A stretch of 36,439 nucleotides of DNA, from assembly GCA_949319575.1 (NCBI GenBank), contig CASGHD010000186.1, positions 1 through 36,439 on the forward strand, written 5' to 3'. This document shows, one piece after another, positions 3,254 through 3,772 of this stretch; positions within the stretch are counted from its first letter, which is position 1; every line of letters begins with the position of its first letter. The translations under genes and the position numbers were made by a program. Below the pieces are notes generated by a model. The model ran no database searches. It saw only the letters and a list, made by a program, of their open reading frames with translations, and was not told the DNA's origin. Source of the DNA: an uncultured Anaerolineales bacterium (GTDB lineage: Bacteria; Chloroflexota; Anaerolineae; Anaerolineales; Villigracilaceae).

Positions 3254-3724
3254 TTATCCTAGGTTGATCTCATCCGCTAGGGACAAGATCTCCTCGTTGG
3301 CAGGGATATCCGTCATATCGTGCCCATAATGGACATAACGCGCCACTCCAGCCTTGTCAATCAGTACCTGGGCGGGCATGCGTCCCATTTTGAACAGGTT
3401 AACTTCCTGTCCGTACAGTTTCAGCACGCTGGACTTGGGATCGGGCAAGCCGATGAAGGGAAGCGCTTCTTTTTCGAAGTAGGCAGTGAAGGCTTTTACA
3501 TCTTCAGGTCCCACAACCACAACTTCGACATTGCATTCAATAAATTTCTGATGGTCCTGGCGCAACTGCGCCATCTGCTTTTGGCAGAATGGTCAGGCAA
3601 ATGTGCGGTTGAAGACCAGCAGCACATTCTTTTGGTTGCGCAGGGCTGATAATTTGAAAGTCTTGCCGGTGTAATCGGTCAGGTTGAAATCCGGGGCAGG
3701 CGTATTGATGGAAACGCGGGGCAT
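3254..3724 (-). CDS. Probable selenocysteine-containing peroxiredoxin-like protein (UxxC)
   Basis: Reading from the ATG at 3724 (AAAGGAT ribosome site upstream) gives 156 residues if one in-frame TGA at 3593-3595 is read through. The N-terminus (PAPDFNLTDYTGKTFKLSAL) is a classic AhpC/TSA-type thioredoxin fold. The TGA is codon 44, in FNRTFA-U-PFCQKQM, where relatives have the first Cys of a CxxC redox centre; the second Cys is Cys47. After it the frame runs without break through the expected fold (VVVVGPED, LPFIGLPDPKSSVLKLYG, PAQVLIDKAG) to the natural stop. A 6-bp GC-rich hairpin with loop AGUU starts 20 bases after the TGA, as bacterial SECIS elements do. Likely a thiol/selenol peroxidase or disulfide reductase. 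Alternatives are a nonsense-mutated pseudogene or a sequencing error; the exact position of the TGA makes selenocysteine more likely. No sel genes are in the window. Confidence 0.78.
3558..3573 (-). promoter_or_regulatory. Candidate bacterial SECIS hairpin
   Basis: On the minus strand, TGGCGC-AGTT-GCGCCA forms a perfect 6-bp stem with a four-base loop. The loop begins 26 bases after the first base of the TGA codon's end and has G as its second base, inside the spacing and apical-G rules described for bacterial SECIS elements bound by SelB. It lies inside the coding sequence, as bacterial SECIS must. Confidence 0.65.
3593..3595 (-). other. In-frame TGA, predicted selenocysteine codon (Sec44)
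   Basis: TGA on the minus strand replaces the first Cys codon of a CPFC-type motif. Upstream and downstream frames are the same and both encode conserved peroxiredoxin-fold sequence, so the codon interrupts an otherwise intact gene. Confidence 0.75.
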
Positions 3725-3772
3725 GGGTAAATCCTTTTTTATTTTTTGCTACCGTATATTTCCTTCGTAAAG

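Follow-up and report, generated by a model that had tools for sequence, protein, structure and literature searches.

A predicted Prx-like UxxC selenoprotein gene, interrupted by one UGA codon, in an Anaerolineales genome and its relatives

Selenoproteins of a peroxiredoxin (Prx)-like type, with selenocysteine (Sec) in a UxxC motif, were listed as a family, and as "previously known", already in 2005 (PMC1088965), and the entries for Prx-like UxxC/UxxU selenoproteins in PMC1794560, PMC9312934 and PMC13188914 recur to it, with Pfam family PF00578 and the representative WP_010940744.1. The position of Sec differs between this family and the TxxU peroxiredoxins, as stated in a passage of PMC1914089. 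For the RNA signal, the bSECIS model as given in PMC13188914 has a loop of 3-9 nt, a stem of 4-16 bp, a G in the first two loop positions, a distance of 16-37 nt from the UGA and a minimum free energy of at most -7.5 kcal/mol. The gene described here lies in a stretch of 36,439 nucleotides, which we call the window, and it fits the known "Prx-like thiol:disulfide oxidoreductase, UxxC" selenoproteins, a placement made by domain and motif.

An interrupted frame and its predicted product

The minus strand of the window from 3724 to 3254 reads as a single frame of 157 codons whose sole interruption is a TGA at 3595-3593; it runs through 43 codons from the ATG at 3724, the TGA, 112 sense codons and a TAA at 3256-3254. 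The TGA stands where a CxxC-type motif, here UPFC, has its first residue. The features of the frame are as follows.

3254..3724, minus strand: predicted selenoprotein gene, Prx-like thiol:disulfide oxidoreductase with UPFC motif, 156 residues, Sec at 44
3593..3595, minus strand: predicted UGA codon for selenocysteine, residue 44
3584..3586, minus strand: Cys47, second redox residue of UxxC, aligned with the peroxidatic Cys of peroxiredoxins
3374..3385, minus strand: Gly-Arg-Met-Pro, residues 114-117, invariant in the 27-row alignment
3731..3736, minus strand: likely ribosome binding site AAGGAT before the ATG at 3724, read from the sequence

The joined frame matches Pfam AhpC-TSA (PF00578) over residues 6-130, spanning the TGA, with E = 6.9e-23 and 81.4 bits against a cut-off of 26. 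Together with the reading of the frame, this match confirms the initial annotation, in which an ATG at 3724 with a ribosome site opens a peroxiredoxin-fold frame that crosses one TGA and continues to 3254. The same annotation held that standard calling yields a 106-residue fragment, and we reproduce this: with table 11 and an 80-aa minimum, ORF calling reports only the fragment at 3574-3254. Ordinary gene finders easily break such a gene, and "hidden", as the annotation called it, is the right word for gene calling; it does not hold for the literature, where the Prx-like UxxC family is already published. Breakage of this kind is seen in a named species as well. For plasmid NC_011961.1 of Thermomicrobium roseum (L099:2001-2456) the PLSDB gene table shows the homologue as a "hypothetical protein" of 42 residues that ends at the TGA and has no gene over the rest, so that only the broken front part appears; the table describes itself as incomplete, and the original record may contain more.

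The product is predicted to be a thioredoxin-fold protein of the AhpC/TSA family. An AlphaFold2 model built with the window protein and 26 relatives has a mean pLDDT of 89.6 and a pTM of 0.88, and places residue 44 immediately before a helix (45-56); its best Foldseek matches in the PDB are the peroxiredoxins Bcp4 and Bcp1 (TM by query length 0.83 and 0.82) together with ResA (0.69-0.77). In sequence alignment with 2ywn, Sec44 falls on the TxxC Thr and Cys47 on the peroxidatic Cys; with the ResA chain 4nmu, the two fall on the first and the second Cys. Pro117 aligns with a Pro of ResA but with an Arg of 2ywn. That ResA Pro stands in what we take to be the place of the thioredoxin-fold cis-Pro. 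The classical peroxiredoxin motif T/S-x-x-C (or U) is absent from the protein, its Thr position being occupied by Sec. Accordingly, the earlier assignment of Sec to the first CxxC residue of a peroxiredoxin-like protein stands as regards UPFC, but the residue is not the peroxidatic Cys and aligns with the peroxiredoxin Thr.

Because Sec lies at the catalytic Thr of peroxiredoxins and Pro117 at the active-site Pro of ResA, a thiol:disulfide oxidoreductase or relay is likelier than a classical peroxidase, and alignment and motif make a ResA/thioredoxin-like thiol:disulfide oxidoreductase the probable role of the protein. In such an enzyme the nucleophile would be Sec44, attacking a disulfide or possibly a peroxide, and Cys47 would resolve it as a Se-S bond that a cellular thiol system would then reduce. 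A true selenoperoxidase, in which Sec44 reacts with peroxides and Cys47 resolves despite the lost TxxC, is the main rival, possible but rather unlikely. It would agree with the AhpC/TSA fold and with TM scores by query length of 0.81-0.83 to the structures of Bcp and AhpE peroxiredoxins, yet the TxxU arrangement of Sec peroxiredoxins is missing and relatives possess separate TxxU genes; in three of the five fetched the Thr aligns with Sec44 and the Sec with Cys47, the other two being gapped there. Moreover, it is Pro117 and not the invariant Arg115 that meets the Arg of 2ywn in the alignment, and Pro117 and UxxC resemble ResA.

The surroundings of the gene give no firm clue to function. Among 27 regions compared (ORFs within about 4.5 kb, some regions shortened by contig ends), no BLAST cluster is common to more than seven once the gene and the ORFs antisense to it are set aside; the most widespread neighbours are SDR-like proteins, found in 7/27 regions at differing distances. 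Pfam identifies an alpha/beta-hydrolase encoded upstream of the selenoprotein in L023, L041, L042 and L099, and BLAST clustering alone does so in L032 and L045; the upstream neighbour in the window is an SDR gene. Between this SDR gene and the selenoprotein gene, a perfect 15-base inverted repeat (3835-3821 with 3787-3773, 33-nt spacer; read by eye) is possibly a terminator. A serine recombinase with Resolvase and Recombinase domains is encoded at 149-1756, about 1.5 kb from the gene, and is perhaps part of a mobile element.

Decoding of the UGA codon

Relatives were sought with a pattern-based scan of one genome per species (84,980 species), which reaches close relatives only; one of its six patterns demanded Cys at the Sec codon, so that the scan did not favour TGA. 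It returned 30 loci, 27 of which cover the codon, three (L043, L044, L046) starting after it and being excluded from the codon counts. We find TGA in 26 of the 27, in proteins 48-75% identical to that of the window; the exception is a remote alphaproteobacterial protein (26% identical) with TGT, encoding Cys. The assemblies of the TGA relatives are labelled mostly Chloroflexota, with three loci under actinobacterial-lineage labels (Actinomycetota; L021, L036, L037) and four under Bacillota (L033, L035 and the Facklamia strains L039 and L040), and related TGA genes are not independent of one another. Relatives with TGC/TGT or with random nonsense mutations had been named as the finding that would speak against the gene, and the opposite is seen. 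In viral contigs a pattern was matched by 11 stretches, none of them coding for a relative.

Purifying selection acts on both sides of the TGA. The dN/dS ratio against the nearest relative is 0.18 upstream and 0.12 downstream, and upstream reaches up to 0.31 across the six relatives compared, rough values with dS about 1 for the nearest relative and saturated for several of the six. Since the TGA is conserved in relatives of such divergence and both sides are under purifying selection, the interrupted frame is more than chance. Frames interrupted by TGA were sought across the window (30 codons or more ahead of the TGA, 60 or more behind it, less than 50% overlap with 28 other marked ORFs); of the four returned, only that at 3254-3724 has a SECIS-like hairpin at or below -7.5 kcal/mol.

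The codon is a site of Cys in other homologues: UxxC-type homologues without TGA carry Cys, as the initial annotation had proposed to check by alignment. On a 68-row tree the five Cys homologues need 4 changes of the Cys label (shuffled mean 4.9; 50/500 shuffles as low), and by this tree the Cys forms are scattered among the Sec forms; the Cys gene L084 is joined to a Sec gene by a starred fork, and L082 by one of lower support (95/76). With five Cys rows and an arbitrary root, the pattern is compatible with repeated Sec-to-Cys change.

Downstream of the UGA lies the following element.

3558..3573, minus strand: predicted bacterial SECIS hairpin, stem UGGCGC/GCGCCA, loop AGUU, 25 nt from UGA to loop

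The hairpin, found at 3573-3558 within the stretch that the initial annotation had named for a search (3540-3600), has a 6-bp stem and a G at loop position 2, scores -10.0 kcal/mol alone and agrees with every term of the bSECIS model in our own coding of the published rule, by which 38 of the 1224 TGAs of the window reach -7.5. Rfam gave no match on the window at gathering scores. For comparison, subfamily A comprises the TGA genes that have Pro, His/Gln, Met/Leu and Gln at Sec+1, +6, +7 and +9, and subfamily B the remaining TGA genes with Pro at Sec+1; L049 was dropped (same DNA as L019), the Cys group leaves out L047 and L095, and no group includes the TxxU-type L092-L094, L097 and L098. In 38/38 distinct subfamily A genes the best hairpin has the loop AGTT at spacing 25; scored alone, 26 of these hairpins reach -7.5 and 12 fall short. 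The loop codons are CAG-TTG in all 38; as background, CAG makes up a fraction of 0.62 of the Gln codons, and TTG 0.17 of the Leu codons, in these A and B genes. Only codon choice and Leu at +10 are independent observations here, because Gln at +9 belongs to the definition of the group. All 38 segments fold more than 1 SD better than synonymous shuffles (mean z -2.0), the window segment alone being marginal (z -2.5, 6.5% of shuffles as low) and the Bacillota rows L033 and L039 being equalled by 37% and 32% of theirs. A hairpin of -7.5 or better occurs in none of the five Cys homologues.

Support from covariation in the stem is thin. Across 36 distinct rows 87.7% of cells are paired, double-change cells number 6 (shuffled mean 2.1) and stem covariation is 0.158, both unequalled in 500 shuffles, while 23/500 shuffles have as many pairs with a double change and the number of pair types does not beat shuffles (127/500 as high). 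Four of the six double-change cells come from two pairs in two distinct Bacillota rows of one clade and probably go back to a single inherited change, and the other two lie at the outermost pair, unformed in 28/36 rows.

The source genome (3.65 Mb, 227 contigs, 91% complete) encodes the machinery for which a search had been proposed. We find a tRNA-Sec (63.4 bits, over the Rfam cut-off; ARAGORN anticodon tca) and, all over their curated cut-offs, SelA (E 2.2e-164), SelB (E 2.8e-100) and SelD (E 5.3e-102), the last as a frame with one in-frame TGA. This selD TGA (L096, G000:C161:8300-10300) lies within GSGK-U-KPLS, and AGUU also occurs in the 8-nt loop of a hairpin predicted behind it; the Sec of SelD is given the motif UxxK in the SelD entry of PMC13188914. 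Among 61 genomes chosen as relatives, own genome included, 29 have a TGA gene of subfamily A or B among the matches listed, whose weak end is incomplete: 28 of the 51 with SelB over the cut-off and 1 of the 10 without (Fisher p = 0.014, kinship uncorrected). In the latter genome (G054) a below-cut-off match starts at contig base 2 and extends further into the SelB model than EF-Tu-like matches do, and we take it for a SelB cut at the contig edge.

Could codon 44 instead reflect a nonsense mutation, a decaying pseudogene or a sequencing error? A single in-frame stop in one draft genome would at first sight give a similar picture, yet the same TGA recurs across the relatives, selection is purifying on both its sides and the hairpin is conserved where the Cys homologues lack it, which leaves this explanation very improbable. 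Still less credible is a recoded genetic code or leaky readthrough that places Trp or some other ordinary amino acid at the UGA, which would equally leave an open frame downstream, since TGA ends 13 of 29 long marked ORFs in the window as a normal stop, homologues without Sec have Cys at the codon (L047, L077, L082-L085) or Thr (TxxC/TxxU peroxiredoxins) and never Trp, and the Sec machinery is complete and accompanied by a SECIS. All three readings (pseudogene, sequencing error, recoded UGA) were rejected on codon conservation, selection and the hairpin.

The UGA at codon 44 is thus very probably decoded as Sec in a predicted selenoprotein gene, and the earlier proposal of a UPFC selenoprotein with TGA at the first Cys position of CxxC is supported by relatives, SECIS and Sec machinery alike. 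From the parts present, SelB with Sec-tRNA(Sec) would bind the AGUU-loop hairpin 25 nt downstream of the codon, and selenocysteine would be inserted instead of termination.

Two positions of the SECIS hairpin

In subfamily B, a sister group, the hairpin lies elsewhere. The best hairpin is at spacing 16-17 in 16 of 19 genes, 8-9 nt closer to the UGA than in subfamily A, with loops AGTTG (12), AGTTA (2) and GTT (2). The 14 genes with AGTTG or AGTTA have Gln-Leu at Sec+6/+7, not Sec+9/+10, encoded by CAG-TTG (12) or CAG-TTA (2), and the two with GTT have Ser-Leu at Sec+6/+7. Three genes depart from this: L074 lacks a hairpin, L042 has only a weak one at another place, and in L079 the loop at spacing 25 is GCTT. 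Against synonymous shuffles the mean z of subfamily B is -1.3, with 13/19 below -1. On the tree the genes of spacing 16-17 and the Cys gene L082 make up a single 17-row group, joined by a weak fork (83/56), and 15 of these rows form a starred clade (100/99).

Relatives also carry a second, distant UxxC Prx-like selenoprotein family (L086-L091, motif RE[FY]xU[MI]QC), in which 5/6 genes have an AGTTG loop at spacing 25. The T. roseum homologue has a 7-bp hairpin after the UGA, with an AGTT loop at spacing 25. As this spacing occurs both in the distant family and in T. roseum, it is probably ancestral. The TxxU peroxiredoxins of relatives (WTP[VI]U; L092-L094, L097, L098) have long hairpins with other loop sequences; these and the subfamily B exceptions argue that the AGUU loop is not universal.

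We consider it an even call that the RNA element steered the protein, the C-AGUU-G loop having moved 9 nt toward the UGA in one group and taken the Gln-Leu of the active-site helix with it, from Sec+9/+10 to Sec+6/+7. If true, it would be SelB recognition, and not enzyme function, that fixes residues near the catalytic centre. In the literature searched, with searches not aimed exactly at relocation, we met no SECIS described as relocated. The dense set of Sec homologues, with the SECIS at two positions and Cys forms scattered among them, is a natural case for testing SelB loop recognition and the constraint that an RNA signal within a coding sequence places on an active site.

Comparison with known families

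Among curated models, the best NCBIfam match of each of five proteins tested is the SelL-related redox protein NF040769, and the nearest models stay below cut-off in all five; the window protein scores 76.8 bits against a cut-off of 120, over residues 9-105 only. Sec peroxiredoxins (TxxU) share its fold and Pfam family, but their Sec aligns with Cys47 and not with Sec44. ResA has a redox CxxC aligned with UxxC and a Pro aligned with Pro117, with TM by query length of 0.69-0.77 among the 50 Foldseek rows listed, and differs by Cys in place of Sec and an identity of 25-27%. Closest are the Prx-like UxxC selenoproteins as described in the family entries of PMC13188914, PMC1088965, PMC1794560 and PMC9312934, which have in common with the gene the AhpC/TSA domain, UxxC in place of TxxU, the existence of Sec and Cys versions and a predicted redox role. 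Compared with those entries, the set gathered here is mostly from Chloroflexota and has, in subfamily A, a constant AGUU loop in its SECIS hairpin.
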